Origin: Candidatus Xiphinematobacter sp.
GTDB lineage: Bacteria; Verrucomicrobiota; Verrucomicrobiia; Chthoniobacterales; Xiphinematobacteraceae
Direction of reading: 5' to 3'
DNA: 64,000 nt
Assembly: GCA_016766635.1 (NCBI GenBank)
Contig: CP068473.1
Location: forward strand, 678,673-742,672
The position numbers and the translations under genes were made by a program. The notes beneath the pieces are model-generated. The model saw only the letters and a program-made list of their open reading frames with translations, was not told where the DNA came from and did not search any database. Position 1 is the stretch's first letter. Every line of letters starts with the position of its first letter. Positions 12,614 to 53,727 of the stretch are shown here, one piece after another.

Positions 12614-13396
12614 ATGGGAAGTGGTTGCTTTTCCTCCTGCCAATGCAATCGCGATAGCAATCCAATTCCAGCCCAGCATATCCTTTATACCGAAAAGTTG
12701 GTCAAGGTATTTGGTAGCCGTACCGTGGTTAATGGGGTGGATATTGGCGTTCGAGAAGGAGAAATTGTGGGTCTTCTGGGTCCCAATGGGGCTGGAAAAA
12801 CTACCACATTTTACATGATTGTGGGATTGACTCGTCCAGATAGAGGAAGAGTGTTTCTCAGAGGTCAAGATGTCACCAGCATGCCTATGTACCGTCGGGC
12901 TCGTCGGGGTATGGGGTATTTACCGCAGGAGGAGAGTATCTTCCGAAAGCTTACAGTGGAAGAAAATATCTTGGCTATTTTGGAGACAACTTCTATGAGG
13001 GCTGGGGAGCGTAGACAACGCTGTGAGCAACTTCTCCACCAGTTCGGTATTGGACACCTTGCCAAAAACTGCGCCCTAACATTAAGTGGAGGGGAAAAAC
13101 GGCGCCTTACTATCGCCAGGTCCCTGGTCACCAACCCTTCTCTCCTTTTACTAGATGAGCCGTTTAGTGGAGTAGATCCCATCGCAGTGCATGATATCCA
13201 GCAGATTATTACCAATTTGCGCACTTCTGGACTGGCCATCCTGATTACTGATCACAACGTACGAGCAACCCTTAACGTCGTAGACCGTGCCTACCTTATC
13301 TATGAAGGGCGAGTAGAAAGTGAAGGAAACAAAGATTTCCTTCTCAGGGACCCTATCAGTCGAAAACTTTACCTTGGAGACACGTTTACCATGTGA
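12614..13396 (+). CDS. lptB: LPS export ABC transporter ATP-binding protein
   Basis: Cytosolic ATPase that powers LPS extraction from the inner membrane. Motifs appear in order: Walker A GPNGAGKTT (about 55-63), Q-loop YLPQEESIFRKLTVEENI, which is typical of LptB, signature LSGGEKRRLTIARSL, Walker B LLLLDEPFSGVDPIAV, and H-loop LITDHNV. Length 260, with about 25 N-terminal residues (Cys/Ser-rich) beyond the usual start, so translation may begin later. Its TGA at 13394-13396 overlaps the GTG start of hprK. Confidence 0.95.
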   Translation: MGSGCFSSCQCNRDSNPIPAQHILYTEKLVKVFGSRTVVNGVDIGVREGEIVGLLGPNGAGKTTTFYMIVGLTRPDRGRVFLRGQDVTSMPMYRRARRGMGYLPQEESIFRKLTVEENILAILETTSMRAGERRQRCEQLLHQFGIGHLAKNCALTLSGGEKRRLTIARSLVTNPSLLLLDEPFSGVDPIAVHDIQQIITNLRTSGLAILITDHNVRATLNVVDRAYLIYEGRVESEGNKDFLLRDPISRKLYLGDTFTM

Positions 13397-14346
13397 CGAG
13401 TCAGTCCCATTTTATAACCGTTGAGCATTTTTATGCTACACAGATGCAGCACCTGGGACTCCGCTTGGAGAGCAGCTCACAAGGGATGGAGCGTAAGATC
13501 ATGGAACCCACTGTCAATCGTCCCGGTTTGGCTCTTAGTGGATTCTATAACTACTTTGCCTCTAAGCGGATACAGGTGATTGGCGCAGCCGAACAGAGTT
13601 ATCTGCATAGTCTCGCCGCAGCGCTTCTTGCTCGCCGCTTGCGTTGTCTATTTGCAAGCAACATCCCTTGCTTAGTGGTAGCACGAGGCTTTGAAGTTTC
13701 TTCACTTCTACTAGGTGAAGCACAATACCATGGGACGCCCGTTTTTTGCACTAATATGGTCACCATGCGGTTTATCAATGCGGCTACCATTGCACTTGAG
13801 TTTGAATTTGCCCCAACATCGGCCGAGCATGGTAGCATGGTAGACATTTTAGGTGTTGGAGTTCTTATACGTGGAGCCAGCGGAATTGGAAAAAGTGAAT
13901 GTGTACTTGGCCTTATCGAACGCGGATATAGCTTGGTTAGCGATGATATTACAAGAATCCGTTTTGTAGAAGGGCGCGAGCTAGTAGGTATGGCCTCCGA
14001 CATCACTAAATTCCATATGGAAGTTCGGGGAATTGGAATTATCAATGTAGCTGCGGTTTTTGGGATTGGTAGCGTCCGTCCTGAAAAAAGGGTCGATCTC
14101 GTCGTAACGCTGAAGGACTGGCGCGAACTGGAAGACGTGGATAGAATCGGACTAGACGTAAATTTCTATGATATCCTGGGGGTCAAAATCCCCCACATTG
14201 TACTACCTGTAAAAATGGGGCGCGATATGGGTAGATTAGTGGAGGTCGCTGCTCTAGACCAGAAACTGAAAAGCATGGGTTCAAACAGCGCAGTGGAATT
14301 TAACCAGCGGTTACTACAGATTATGAGTGTTCACCAAGCAAAGTAG
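13393..14346 (+). CDS. hprK: HPr kinase/phosphorylase
   Basis: Bifunctional enzyme that phosphorylates and dephosphorylates the regulatory serine of HPr. The P-loop GASGIGKSE is at about 162-170, followed by LVSDDITRI and the HprK/P signature MEVRGIGIINVAAVFG, with the C-terminal helix region KLKSMGSNSAVEFNQRL. The GTG start at 13393 overlaps the lptB stop; an ATG at 13444 is an alternative. It is followed immediately by its substrate ptsH and by ptsI, forming a complete regulatory phosphotransfer module next to LPS export. Confidence 0.95.
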   Translation: MTSQSHFITVEHFYATQMQHLGLRLESSSQGMERKIMEPTVNRPGLALSGFYNYFASKRIQVIGAAEQSYLHSLAAALLARRLRCLFASNIPCLVVARGFEVSSLLLGEAQYHGTPVFCTNMVTMRFINAATIALEFEFAPTSAEHGSMVDILGVGVLIRGASGIGKSECVLGLIERGYSLVSDDITRIRFVEGRELVGMASDITKFHMEVRGIGIINVAAVFGIGSVRPEKRVDLVVTLKDWRELEDVDRIGLDVNFYDILGVKIPHIVLPVKMGRDMGRLVEVAALDQKLKSMGSNSAVEFNQRLLQIMSVHQAK

Positions 14347-14348
14347 TG

Positions 14349-14645
14349 ATGGGATCACGCTTACATCAAAATAATGTAGCTTCTCTACGATTAGAAAAGG
14401 AAGTCACTATCCAGAATCGGGATGGGCTGCATGCTCGTCCAGCTGCCCTCCTTGTTAAACTTGCCAGAAGACACAACGTAGATCTCTGGGTAGAAAGAGA
14501 CGGAGAACGGGTCAATGGGAAATCAATTATGGGCCTTATGATGCTTGCTGCTTCTAAGGGGACTAAGTTGAAACTTCTTGCAGAAGGAGCGGGCTCTGAA
14601 AAAGCTATTTCTGAGATCCAAGAGCTTATATCCAAGAGCTTATAG
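14349..14645 (+). CDS. ptsH: HPr phosphocarrier protein with altered C-terminus
   Basis: Small phosphocarrier of the PTS. The active histidine is in GLHARPA (His28 here, equal to His15 of the family) and the HprK target serine in VNGKSIMGLMMLA (Ser59, equal to Ser46). Both sites are intact, so it can receive phosphate from Enzyme I and be modified by HprK. The last codons overlap a perfect 14-bp tandem duplication (14616-14643). Removing one copy restores a frame ending ELIDSRFGEE and a stop at 14666-14668, which resembles the usual HPr terminus; the present protein instead ends ELISKSL. An ATG at 14349 is preferred over a GTG one codon earlier. Confidence 0.95.
   Translation: MGSRLHQNNVASLRLEKEVTIQNRDGLHARPAALLVKLARRHNVDLWVERDGERVNGKSIMGLMMLAASKGTKLKLLAEGAGSEKAISEIQELISKSL
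14616..14643 (+). repeat. 14-bp tandem duplication at the 3' end of ptsH
   Basis: Two perfect adjacent copies of ATCCAAGAGCTTAT (14616-14629 and 14630-14643). The unit length is not a multiple of three, so the second copy is read in another frame and introduces the present ptsH stop codon. Confidence 0.97.
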
Positions 14646-14722
14646 ATAGCCGCTTCGGTGAAGAATGACCAAAATAAGTGGTCAGCGTCTAGTTATCTGC
14701 GCTTACTTATCCAGGTAAAAAT

Positions 14723-16510
14723 GTGATACAACATCCCGGCATGCAGAGTGGAGTAGAGAGGGAATGCTCCTTTTACGGGAGCTCCCTTGCAGAGGGGATC
14801 TGTTGTGGGAAGGCCTTTATTTATCGACATGAGGACGAGCAAACTCCCGTCCGGCAGGTTGCGCCGAAGGAACTTTCCCAGGAAGTTACAAAATTCGAGA
14901 TGGCACGTGTTGCTACTAGGGCTGAGATCTTGGGAATCCAGCGGAAAATTGCCAGTGCTGTTGGTGCAAGGGACGCCGGCATCTTTGAGGCCCACCTCCT
15001 TGTAGTAGAAGATCATACTCTTATTGATGAAGTTTTAAAAACGCTCGAGCGAGAATTGAAGAACGTTGAACACGTTTTTGATCAAGTGGTAGAACGCTAC
15101 TGTAAAACCTTACGTGATACCGGTGATCCGTATCTTCGCGAACGAGTATTAGATATTGAAGATGTCCGCAGGCGGATGCTTCGGCACATGTTGGGTAGAT
15201 TCCACCCCGCCAAGCTTGATGAAATTTCGAAAGGTTCTTCCGTCGTACTCGCCCGTAGCCTCTCTCCATCCGATGCTGCTTTCCTTTATACGTGCGCCAT
15301 ACTAGGCTGCGTAACAGAGATTGGCAGCAGAAATTCCCACACGGCAATCATTATCCGCTCGCTTAACATTCCATCCATTTTTGGGGTGGCAGATATTTGT
15401 GGGAAGGTCAGAACGGGTGATGAAGTTTTGCTAGATGGCTACAGGGGCATCCTTATCCATAACCCTGCAGCAGGGACGCTTGACTATTACGGAGAGCTTG
15501 CCAATCAGGAAGGGGCAGTGGCGGAACGTCTAGAATCTATCCGCAACACACTTTCCATCACTAGAGACGGATTCCACATTATTCTCTCTGCTAACATTGG
15601 GCTATTGGCAGAAGTGGAGGACGTCCACAAAAATGGGGCTGAGGGAATCGGTCTCTACCGGACAGAGTTTCTCTTTCTGAACCGCTCTATTCCTCCGTCT
15701 GAGGAGGAACAATATGAAAACTATCGCCTTGTTGCACAGCGTACAAAGCCGTATGGAGTCATTATCCGCACTGTAGATGCCGGAAGCGATAAGATCATCA
15801 AGAGTTTGCATATGGAAAAAGAACAGAACCCCTCCCTAGGCTGTAGGGCCATCCGTTTCTGCCTCCAGCACCCAATTTTTTTCAAAAAGCAGCTTCGGGC
15901 CATTCTGCGCGCTGCTGTCGAAACGAATATCCGCCTCCTATACCCAATGATTTCCGGTATTATCGAACTCCGCAGAGCAAACGCCCTGCTTAAAGAGTCC
16001 CAGACTGAGCTACAAGAGGAAGGCATACCGTTCCAGGAAAACCTGGAAGTAGGAATAATGATAGAAGTCCCCAGCGCGGCCCTGACCGCCCACATCCTAG
16101 CTGAAGAAGTAGATTTTTTCAGTATCGGAACCAACGACCTGACTCAGTATGCAGTAGCAGTAGACCGGGTTAATGAACAAATCGCGCATCTCTATGATCC
16201 TATGCATCCTGCACTTATTCGTCTTATCAAAATGGTAGTTGAAGCCGCACATACGCAGGGTATCTGGATAGGTCTCTGTGGGGAGATAGCCAGTGATATC
16301 CGACTTACTCCTCTACTTCTAGGTCTGGGCCTCGACGAACTCAGCGTTGGCGCTTCGCTTGTACCCCGCATTAAAAATGCTGTGCAAAGCTTAGATATGG
16401 AAATTTGCATTAACCTTGCCCACGCGTCTGTGCAAGCCCACTCGAGTGCTACGATTCTAGAAAAATGTCTTGCTGTTGCCAGGTCTCACTATAACGAACT
16501 TCTCACATAG
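14723..16510 (+). CDS. ptsI: PTS Enzyme I (phosphoenolpyruvate-protein phosphotransferase)
   Basis: Transfers phosphate from PEP to HPr. The phospho-histidine region is IGSRNSHTAII (His about 206). The PEP-binding C-terminal barrel shows GLYRTEFLF, NPSLGCRAIRF, MIEVPSAALTA, SIGTNDLTQY and the catalytic cysteine in GLCGEIASD near residue 518. Length 595 is normal for a stand-alone Enzyme I. The start is uncertain: GTG at 14723 follows a weak AGG, and ATG at 14741 is possible. It follows ptsH by about 78 bp. No sugar-specific EIIB/EIIC is in the window, which suggests a regulatory rather than transport role. Confidence 0.95.
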   Translation: MIQHPGMQSGVERECSFYGSSLAEGICCGKAFIYRHEDEQTPVRQVAPKELSQEVTKFEMARVATRAEILGIQRKIASAVGARDAGIFEAHLLVVEDHTLIDEVLKTLERELKNVEHVFDQVVERYCKTLRDTGDPYLRERVLDIEDVRRRMLRHMLGRFHPAKLDEISKGSSVVLARSLSPSDAAFLYTCAILGCVTEIGSRNSHTAIIIRSLNIPSIFGVADICGKVRTGDEVLLDGYRGILIHNPAAGTLDYYGELANQEGAVAERLESIRNTLSITRDGFHIILSANIGLLAEVEDVHKNGAEGIGLYRTEFLFLNRSIPPSEEEQYENYRLVAQRTKPYGVIIRTVDAGSDKIIKSLHMEKEQNPSLGCRAIRFCLQHPIFFKKQLRAILRAAVETNIRLLYPMISGIIELRRANALLKESQTELQEEGIPFQENLEVGIMIEVPSAALTAHILAEEVDFFSIGTNDLTQYAVAVDRVNEQIAHLYDPMHPALIRLIKMVVEAAHTQGIWIGLCGEIASDIRLTPLLLGLGLDELSVGASLVPRIKNAVQSLDMEICINLAHASVQAHSSATILEKCLAVARSHYNELLT

Positions 16511-23170: not shown

Positions 23171-23241
23171 AGCGGGTAGAGGGAATCGAACCCTCCTAAC
23201 CAGCTTGGAAGGCTGGAACTTTGCCACTAAGCTATACCCGC
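23171..23241 (-). tRNA. tRNA-Gly (TCC)
   Basis: Read on the minus strand the acceptor GCGGGTA pairs perfectly with TACCCGC, the anticodon stem CCAGC/GCTGG encloses CTTCCAA giving anticodon TCC, and the T arm has GGTTCGATTCC. The discriminator is U, as usual for glycine tRNAs. The length is 71 nt. Its 5' end is repeated just upstream as a tandem array. Confidence 0.96.
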
Positions 23242-23263
23242 GTATACCCGCGTATGACCCGCG
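23233..23263. repeat. Tandem repeats of the tRNA-Gly 5' end
   Basis: TATACCCGCG is repeated at 23233-23242 and 23243-23252, followed by a variant with one extra base at 23253-23263. The first copy contains the tRNA-Gly acceptor 5' strand, so the array is a partial duplication of the tRNA end. Confidence 0.9.
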
Positions 23264-23319
23264 TAAGAAGCCTTCAATTGGATGGCCCAATAGACCAGAA
23301 TAGTCAACCCTTTTGAAAA

Positions 23320-23341
23320 AAGTTTACCTTAAGTTTACCTT
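23320..23341. repeat. 11-bp tandem duplication
   Basis: AAGTTTACCTT occurs twice in perfect tandem (23320-23330, 23331-23341) in the non-coding region between tRNA-Gly and ilvB. Confidence 0.95.
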
Positions 23342-23468
23342 ATGGGGGACAATGTAAGGGAATGTAGCCAGTCGCTAGCCGTCTTGCACGCCTGTGCCCC
23401 GCCTCAGTGCCCACCGGAAATAACTCTCTTCCAGACTCAGAGATTACCGCCAGCAGCTTTTTTCCCCT

Positions 23469-25891: not shown

Positions 25892-28153
25892 ATGCCCGTG
25901 GTTGCCAAAGTTGTGGTAGGTCGGTCCACAGGAAGGGCGCTAGACTACCTCGTCCCAAGACTGCTACAAATTCAGGTGAGGGCGGGAACACGCGTCCTTG
26001 TCCCCCTTCGTACGCGTGTCGTTCAAGGGATCGTTATTGATATTTCTAGCTCCCCTGGAAACGAGTCGGAGAAGGGGTTGCGTGCTATCTGTGAAGTAAG
26101 CGACGCCCCCTCAATTCAACCCGTTCTAATCAGTCTGGCGCATTGGATGGCCAAGTACTACTGTTGCTCCTTGGGAGCAGCACTACGATGTGTGTTGCCA
26201 TCTGTCTTGCGTAAGGCGCAGGTGCGGACGCTACCCAGAAGGGGATGCTATATTTTCAGGTCGGCGCGCGAGATAGATGCTAATGAACGCTCTCTCCTAG
26301 AGGAGAAAGCCCCTTGCCAGGCACGGTTGCTACTCAGTCTACAGCATCCAGAGAGAAAACTGACACTTGCCGATGCGGAAAAAAGGGTGAAACGAACCAG
26401 TACGTTGGCTCATGGCACCAGTACGTTGGCTCATGGCTTAGAGCGGCGCGGACTAGTCTGCATTGAGAAGGAACAGGTGTACCGACATTCCCACGGTAAA
26501 GAGCTTTGCTCACAAAACAGGGCATCCGAGTTAAGTGCAGAACAAAAGACAGCTTTACGGGAAGTGGCTGCATGCATCCGAGACCCCGAACATTCCAGGC
26601 CGATACTTTTATACGGAGCAACCGGAGCCAGCAAAACTGAGGTTTACCTGGGTGCAATTGAGGAAACCCTACGCCTTGGTCGTACCGCGATGGTGCTTGT
26701 GCCGGAAATTTCATTAACCCCTCAAATATCGGAGCAGCTTAGATCCCATTTTCCCTCTATTCAAGATCAGGTAATAGTCTTGCACAGTCACCTCTCCAGA
26801 GGTATCCGCGTCGATGCGTGGCAGAAAATCCATTCTAAACAGGTCCGAGTTGTGATTGGGGCACGCAGTGCCGTTTTTTCCCCGATAAATGACCTTGGTC
26901 TAATCATTGTAGATGATGAACATGAAGCTGCTTACAAGCAGGAGGAATCTCCTAAATATCACGCAAGAGATATAGCTGTTTTGAGAGCCAGCCAGGAGAA
27001 ATGTGCCATTCTGTTGGGCAGTGCTACCCCTTCACTAGAAAGCTTCCTCAACACACGTAACGGCAAGTACCATCTCCTTCGATTAGGGAGTCATATAGAC
27101 AGCTGTTCTTTGCCTGTTATGCGCATTCTAGATCTCCGACAACTAAGACGCTTAGGGGGGCGGCGGCAGCCTATTCTCAGCGAACCACTATGCTCAGCTA
27201 TTCAAGAGCGTTTAAATCGCCGTGAGCAGACCATTCTATTCCTTAATCGTCGTGGATTTTCCACTGCAATGATTTGCACTATCTGCGGCCATGTTTGCCA
27301 GTGCCCTAATTGTAGTCTCTCCATGACCTATCATCACACGGGGAGACTAATTTGCCACCTTTGCAGCCACACAGTTCCATCTCCCTCAAAGTGCCCGTCT
27401 TGTAGAGATTCTTCCATTCGTCATACGGGAATAGGCACACAAAAAATCGAGGAAATTTCCAGACAGCTCTTTCCTACCGCTCGTATTGTGAGGGTAGATG
27501 CCGACTCTATGACGCGGAAGAATGCTTATGAAGAAGTGTTAGAGCTCTTCAAACTCGGCCAGATTGACCTATTGATTGGTACACAGATAATCGCTAAAGG
27601 CCTTCATTTTCCCAACGTAACTCTTGTTGGCGTTGTAAACGCTGACTTCAGTCTTCATATAACGGACTTTCGCGCAGGAGAACGAACTTTCCAGCTCCTT
27701 ACCCGGATAGCCAGCAGTATTAGAAGAGGAGCGATACGGGGAGAGGTTCTCATACAAACATTCACCCCATTTAGCCCTTATATCAAATTTGCCTGTCAAC
27801 GAAATTATGAGGGCTTTTTCGAGCAAGAGATACGATTTAGACGGTACTGTGGACATCCCCCATTTTCCCATCTCATTCTCCTCACATTACGTTCCAGCTC
27901 GCGAGAGCATGCCGATTCTCTTGCCAAGAAAGTGGCTCATGAATTAGCTGCGACGCTACCGCCCACAGTTAGAATAGGTGAAGCTGTACCGGCTCCCCTG
28001 CAAAGAGTGAAAGGAAAATTCCGATTCCACCTTGCAATTCGCGCCAAAGGGATTTCCGTAGTTGCACGAGCCTTAAGGATGACTTTGGATAAGTTATCCA
28101 TCCCATCGGATGTGGCTCTTTCTGTAGATGTAGATCCCCACCAACTCCTTTAA
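25892..28153 (+). CDS. priA: Primosomal protein N' (PriA helicase), divergent
   Basis: Replication-restart helicase of 753 residues with normal domain order: N-terminal DNA-binding domain, ATPase lobe 1, zinc-binding insertion (CTICGHVCQCPNCS ... CHLCSHTVPSPSKCPSC) and lobe 2. The DEAH-type box reads DDEHEAAYKQEE. Two ATPase motifs differ from the family norm: Walker A reads GATGASKTE (about 242-250), with Ser247 in place of the glycine before the lysine, and motif VI reads TRIASSIRRG (604-613) where VAGRAGRG is expected. Residues 169-175 and 176-182 are an exact 7-residue duplication caused by a 21-bp tandem repeat. The frame is intact, so the gene may be functional but weakened. Confidence 0.9.
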   Translation: MPVVAKVVVGRSTGRALDYLVPRLLQIQVRAGTRVLVPLRTRVVQGIVIDISSSPGNESEKGLRAICEVSDAPSIQPVLISLAHWMAKYYCCSLGAALRCVLPSVLRKAQVRTLPRRGCYIFRSAREIDANERSLLEEKAPCQARLLLSLQHPERKLTLADAEKRVKRTSTLAHGTSTLAHGLERRGLVCIEKEQVYRHSHGKELCSQNRASELSAEQKTALREVAACIRDPEHSRPILLYGATGASKTEVYLGAIEETLRLGRTAMVLVPEISLTPQISEQLRSHFPSIQDQVIVLHSHLSRGIRVDAWQKIHSKQVRVVIGARSAVFSPINDLGLIIVDDEHEAAYKQEESPKYHARDIAVLRASQEKCAILLGSATPSLESFLNTRNGKYHLLRLGSHIDSCSLPVMRILDLRQLRRLGGRRQPILSEPLCSAIQERLNRREQTILFLNRRGFSTAMICTICGHVCQCPNCSLSMTYHHTGRLICHLCSHTVPSPSKCPSCRDSSIRHTGIGTQKIEEISRQLFPTARIVRVDADSMTRKNAYEEVLELFKLGQIDLLIGTQIIAKGLHFPNVTLVGVVNADFSLHITDFRAGERTFQLLTRIASSIRRGAIRGEVLIQTFTPFSPYIKFACQRNYEGFFEQEIRFRRYCGHPPFSHLILLTLRSSSREHADSLAKKVAHELAATLPPTVRIGEAVPAPLQRVKGKFRFHLAIRAKGISVVARALRMTLDKLSIPSDVALSVDVDPHQLL
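26396..26437 (+). repeat. 21-bp in-frame tandem duplication in priA
   Basis: Two perfect adjacent 21-bp copies (26396-26416 and 26417-26437) encode the heptapeptide TSTLAHG twice. Because 21 is a multiple of three, the reading frame is kept. Confidence 0.97.
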
Positions 28154-53268: not shown

Positions 53269-53272
53269 ATGA
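53045..53272 (+). CDS. Possible small hypothetical protein overlapping ptsN
   Basis: A 75-codon open frame that ends in the TGA of an ATGA overlap with the ptsN start, as in translationally coupled genes. The predicted sequence is mildly hydrophobic (FLYCLLPIIARRLEHGVVPVLGI) and ends AIDNLQTFPSK. I do not recognise it, and it may be a chance frame or the remnant of a longer gene. Confidence 0.28.
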   Translation: MTQFLYCLLPIIARRLEHGVVPVLGIRRFGWVASKLDWMSSWKFPIGCSLESVLTAGQLVPVIKAIDNLQTFPSK

Positions 53273-53727
53273 TGTTAGCTAACCTTTTATCTGCCCAGCA
53301 GATCATCCTGGAGATGAAGTCCACTAAGCGGTGGGAGGCTATTACGGAGTTAGCATCCCTGTTGGTCCAGCAGGGAAAGATTGAAAAAAAAGATAAGCAA
53401 AACATCCTGCAAGCTTTGCGGCAAAGAGAAGAAACAATGAGTACCGGTATTGGTTATGGTATAGCCATTCCCCACGCCTCGTCGGAATGTGTCTCTAGTG
53501 TGGTTGCTGGCTTCGGAAGGTCCTCCAAGGGCATCTCTTTTGATGCTTTGGACAATGCTCCAGTATACTTCATTGTCCTTTTCATCGTGCCAAGCAGCCA
53601 GTTCCAAATCCATCTTCGCACCCTTGCGGCCATTGCTAAGTTTCTGAATGACAAAACTGTGCGAGACGGTCTAGCTAAGGCTAGGGACGTACAACAAATT
53701 TTAGGCGTGTTTACAAATCGTATGTAA
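53269..53727 (+). CDS. ptsN: EIIA-Ntr type PTS regulatory protein
   Basis: Phosphoacceptor of the nitrogen-type PTS with 152 residues. The phospho-histidine is in GYGIAIPHASSE (His69). The family pattern AITELASLLVQQGKI, REETMSTGIG, PVYFIVLFIVPS and HLRTLAAIAKFLNDKTVRDGL is complete. EIIA-Ntr usually has only regulatory targets. Together with hprK-ptsH-ptsI elsewhere in the window it gives a phospho-relay from PEP to a regulatory output. argS begins about 40 bp downstream. Confidence 0.93.
   Translation: MMLANLLSAQQIILEMKSTKRWEAITELASLLVQQGKIEKKDKQNILQALRQREETMSTGIGYGIAIPHASSECVSSVVAGFGRSSKGISFDALDNAPVYFIVLFIVPSSQFQIHLRTLAAIAKFLNDKTVRDGLAKARDVQQILGVFTNRM

Follow-up and report, generated by a model that had tools for sequence, protein, structure and literature searches.

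A 14-bp tandem duplication at the 3' end of ptsH and the altered HPr tail of Candidatus Xiphinematobacter P23

Here we ask whether the unusual end of the ptsH gene in the Candidatus Xiphinematobacter genome P23 reflects a genuine mutation and, if it does, in which lineage it arose, how old it may be and what it has done to the phosphocarrier protein HPr. P23 (CP068473; 917,278 bp in a single contig), a bacterium that lives in nematodes, is among the isolates for which the name 'Candidatus Xiphinematobacter luci' has been proposed (PMC7857533), and the locus lies in a 64,000-nucleotide stretch of that contig, referred to below as the window. We judge it likely that a real 14-bp duplication of the P23 lineage shifted the frame of the HPr tail, leaving a functional, near-neutral variant, and that it belongs to a larger set of such duplications in a reduced genome from which mutS and mutL are missing.

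The duplicated unit and the new end of HPr

Read directly, window positions 14616-14643 consist of ATCCAAGAGCTTAT twice, adjacent and with zero mismatches, and base 14644 also matches. The two plus-strand copies occupy 14616-14629 and 14630-14643; the unit is present once in the related genome XipG, and the added copy is indistinguishable from the original. Six perfect tandem copies with a period of at least 10 occur in the real window, compared with none in 12 dinucleotide-preserving shuffles. The ptsH gene itself (14349-14645, plus strand) encodes an HPr of 98 amino acids ending in EIQELISKSL from an ATG at 14349 that aligns with the XipG ATG, an alternative GTG start at 14346 being possible. 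As 14 bases do not make up whole codons, the added copy shifts the reading frame in the last ptsH codons. The first-pass annotation had described two perfect adjacent copies, an ELISKSL ending and, with one copy skipped, a restored ELIDSRFGEE, and the plus strand reads exactly so, with a TAG stop at 14643-14645 in the present frame and a TGA at 14666-14668 in the restored one. The former end (IDSRFGEE, 14643-14668, plus strand, in the other frame) is thus a relict, now untranslated, that is homologous to the IESRFGEE-stop of XipG. Residue by residue, DSRF has become SKSL and GEE is gone; the exchange of the seven residues DSRFGEE for SKSL is a small change and looks mild.

Upstream of this tail, the protein reads as an ordinary HPr. 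Encoded by a single gene in the P23 genome, it matches the Pfam PTS-HPr family (PF00381; curated cut-off 23 bits) at 99.9 bits over profile positions 2-80 of 81. The GLHARPA (His site) and NGKSIMG (Ser site) motifs are present and unchanged, in keeping with the earlier claim that both phosphorylation sites are kept, and the His, Arg and Ser columns are invariant across 34 HPr sequences. The structure predicted by AlphaFold2 from 34 sequences, with a mean pLDDT of 87.2, places helices at residues 29-41, 60-66 and 83-95 of 98, so that the predicted structure has the HPr fold with three helices and a complete C-terminal helix. Superposed on E. coli HPr (1poh, 85 amino acids), the model yields 84 aligned columns for a target length of 85 and a TM score of 0.91 by target.

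Comparison with HPrs of known structure bears on how much has been lost. In an ungapped alignment of the 99-residue query that begins at GTG 14346, residues 17-96 pair with residues 3-82 of the 85 in the E. coli chain and three residues remain in both; by this alignment, the C-terminal end of P23 HPr coincides with that of E. coli HPr. The two share fold and end point, whereas they are only about 33% identical in structural alignment and the E. coli protein ends there without any duplication. The duplication had also been put forward as a gauge of how much of HPr can be lost, a proposal we set aside because a protein that ends where E. coli HPr ends probes no new limit. The top match among solved structures, the HPr of Thermoanaerobacter tengcongensis (3le1, 88 amino acids; 49% identical structurally), differs in retaining an LIESKF end and three more residues, which P23 HPr does not.

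Polarity and age of the duplication

XipG (the Idaho Grape isolate, G003; 915,884 bp, CP012665) is the nearest relative compared and is placed in the same genus. The gene order hprK-ptsH-ptsI is common to both genomes and the two HPrs are 84% identical over P23 query residues 9-96. XipG DNA is colinear with that of P23 on both flanks and has exactly 14 bases fewer at the duplication site, such that it carries one unit and an HPr ending in ELIESRFGEE where P23 carries two units and ELISKSL. Two more distant, larger-genome members of the genus (G001 and G002) likewise end in ELIESRFGEE, bearing out the expectation that relatives have an FGEE-type ending. Among 103 distinct HPrs, mostly from Verrucomicrobiota, the residues after the NGKS serine number 42 in 89 sequences, 43 in nine, 44 in three, 75 in one and 39 in P23 only, and 99 of the 103 have Phe at the position where P23 now ends in Leu. 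An SKSL ending is excluded for the sister XipG and for the 101 other HPrs. The single unit at a colinear site in XipG and the P23-only count of 39 post-serine residues therefore show, as first proposed, that a derived duplication moved the stop; it arose in the P23 lineage once that lineage had diverged from XipG.

That the event is recent or dated, as the first-pass annotation further held, does not follow. Dating by identity between the copies was rejected, since the single XipG unit is identical at 14 of 14 positions to both P23 copies despite about 0.4-0.9 synonymous changes per site between P23 and XipG in the genes compared; copy identity is thus without age information. All that follows is that the duplication is younger than the P23-XipG split. 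Given the repeat itself, it is reasonable to suppose that the lesion may be reversible.

We also considered that the second copy could have been created at contig joining, in which case the living P23 symbiont would have a normal FGEE end. The P23 assembly was produced by metaSPAdes on merged paired short reads, with contigs laced by overlap (PMC7857533), and joins of this kind can duplicate short overlaps; furthermore, the P23 tail is seen in no other HPr examined. However, even the smallest of the k-mers used (25-115) exceeds the 14-bp unit in length, such that the assembly graph should separate one copy from two, making an error unlikely, and similar perfect duplications occur throughout the sampled P23 sequence as well as in the separately assembled XipG. 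We therefore regard an assembly artefact as unlikely.

The phosphorelay around the altered HPr

The hprK, ptsH and ptsI genes are consecutive on the plus strand, each with full Pfam domains. Specifically, hprK (13393-14346) encodes an intact HPr kinase/phosphorylase of 317 amino acids (Hpr_kinase_N 109.9 bits, Hpr_kinase_C 194.8 bits), and ptsI (14723-16510, although its start may be ATG 14741) encodes an intact Enzyme I of up to 595 amino acids with three Pfam domains. The single intact EIIA left (PTS_EIIA_2; 53269-53727, plus strand, 152 amino acids; PF00359, 114 bits) is the likely phosphate acceptor of HPr. Searches for three further families, EIIC (PF02378), PTS_IIB (PF02302) and EIIA-man (PF03610), gave no match in P23 or XipG, and the membrane EIIC and EIIB that define a sugar-transporting PTS were accordingly not found in either genome with PF02378 and PF02302. 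Because of these missing matches we read the relay of P23 and XipG as probably regulatory. The apparent absence of a permease is shared with the nitrogen PTS of Proteobacteria, a resemblance in working and not in membership.

A second EIIA-type gene (P23 G000:C1:42722-43529) is broken across three reading frames in P23 and shows, along with other differences from XipG, insertions of 5 and 2 bases; the XipG copy is intact, encodes 275 amino acids and adjoins a P-type ATPase gene, and the P-type ATPase reading that adjoins the broken P23 EIIA is also fragmentary.

It is conceivable, if quite improbable, that the altered tail marks early decay of HPr, with a phosphorelay of waning importance in P23 and a tail change that lowers activity. 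The lack of PTS_EIIC and PTS_IIB matches in both genomes and the frame-broken second EIIA, intact in XipG, would fit such decay, as would a P23-XipG dN/dS of 0.185 for the ptsH body (from only 82 codons), about twice the values for hprK (0.094) and ptsI (0.086). Yet hprK, ptsI and the EIIA at 53269 (dN/dS 0.038) are intact with low ratios, from which these partner genes appear to be under purifying selection, and the active-site motifs of HPr are unchanged. Nor are body substitutions clearly faster in P23, where three are derived, compared with two in XipG and five that are ambiguous; on these sequences, any acceleration of the HPr body in P23 would not be a clear one.

We hold as very doubtful a more elaborate proposal, namely that the conserved tail was lost together with a partner that it served in the permease-less HprK-HPr-EI-EIIA relay, and that, through the repeat, long and short alleles go on converting into one another within symbiont populations. 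Ribosomal frameshifting near the new stop, by which some long, FGEE-ended HPr would still be made, is scarcely credible: the old end does remain readable in the -1 frame, but a young event would leave the relict intact without any selection, and a programmed form was rejected on direct reading, the bases before the stop (GAGCTTATAG) being without an X-XXY-YYZ slippery heptamer.

Frequent short tandem duplications and the missing mutS and mutL

Returning to a real duplication in the P23 lineage, its setting is one in which similar events are common. In sampled stretches, rather than whole genomes, P23 (264 kb) has 16 perfect tandem duplications with a period of at least 10, XipG (275 kb) also has 16 (nine of which fall within one 75-bp minisatellite, leaving 8 loci) and seven non-reduced relatives together have 6 in a pooled 735 kb. 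The density in P23 is about seven-fold higher than in the non-reduced relatives (p = 8e-6); a joint P23 and XipG p-value is unusable, as it counts the minisatellite nine times, and the P23-alone value is unaffected. Perfect head-to-tail copies spanning 10-21 bp, common in P23 and rarer in XipG, are a likeness that the ptsH case shares with other short duplications in reduced symbiont genomes, and the ptsH duplication exemplifies a mutational habit that is general in P23.

Other examples lie within the window. In priA, a perfect 21-bp tandem duplication at 26396-26437 adds seven residues (TSTLAHG twice), XipG being 21 bases shorter there; this copy is in-frame, whereas the ptsH copy shifts the frame at the extreme end of a retained gene. 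A 10-bp tandem repeat at 23233-23265 accompanies a net 21-bp insertion relative to XipG, and an 11-bp tandem repeat lies at 23320-23342. On a larger scale, about 32.1-52.6 kb is inverted relative to XipG (window about 31144-53195), and the breakpoint region at 31.1-33.2 kb aligns poorly and holds several short tandem repeats.

Neither P23 nor XipG gave a match to MutS (PF00488) or MutL (PF01119), and all seven relatives tested matched both; XipG has been reported to be without almost all mismatch repair genes (PMC4607532). Loss of mismatch repair may underlie short duplications of this kind. Mismatch repair is known mainly for its action on loops of a few bases, however, so its loss may not account for duplications of 14 bp; their density may also stem from lower coding density or GC.

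Taken together, the course of events that we favor would begin during replication with strand slippage or a switch of template, the most likely source of the 14-bp copy, which would have shifted the frame in the final ptsH codons and exchanged DSRFGEE for SKSL. HPr would remain functional, a judgement that follows from its predicted fold, both phosphorylation sites, the retained partner genes and an end that matches the E. coli one, and the mutation was probably tolerated as near-neutral; it has many counterparts among the short tandem duplications of this reduced genome, whose missing mutS and mutL may have favored them. Against near-neutrality, the lost tail is conserved (its Phe, as above, in nearly all HPrs compared) and may therefore have a role; the ptsH dN/dS exceeds those of hprK, ptsI and eiiA, with the caveat of its few codons; and the SKSL allele is known from one assembly.

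Overall, the mutation looks real, specific to one lineage and mild, and the HPr that carries it is an ordinary one. Taken alone, the event is minor, a frame-shifting duplication at a gene end that leaves a protein length known from E. coli. It nevertheless provides a clean case, with known polarity, of the kind of mutation that builds up where a symbiont genome lacks mismatch repair, and the SKSL end of P23, as a natural replacement of a conserved tail, could be used to ask what that tail is for.
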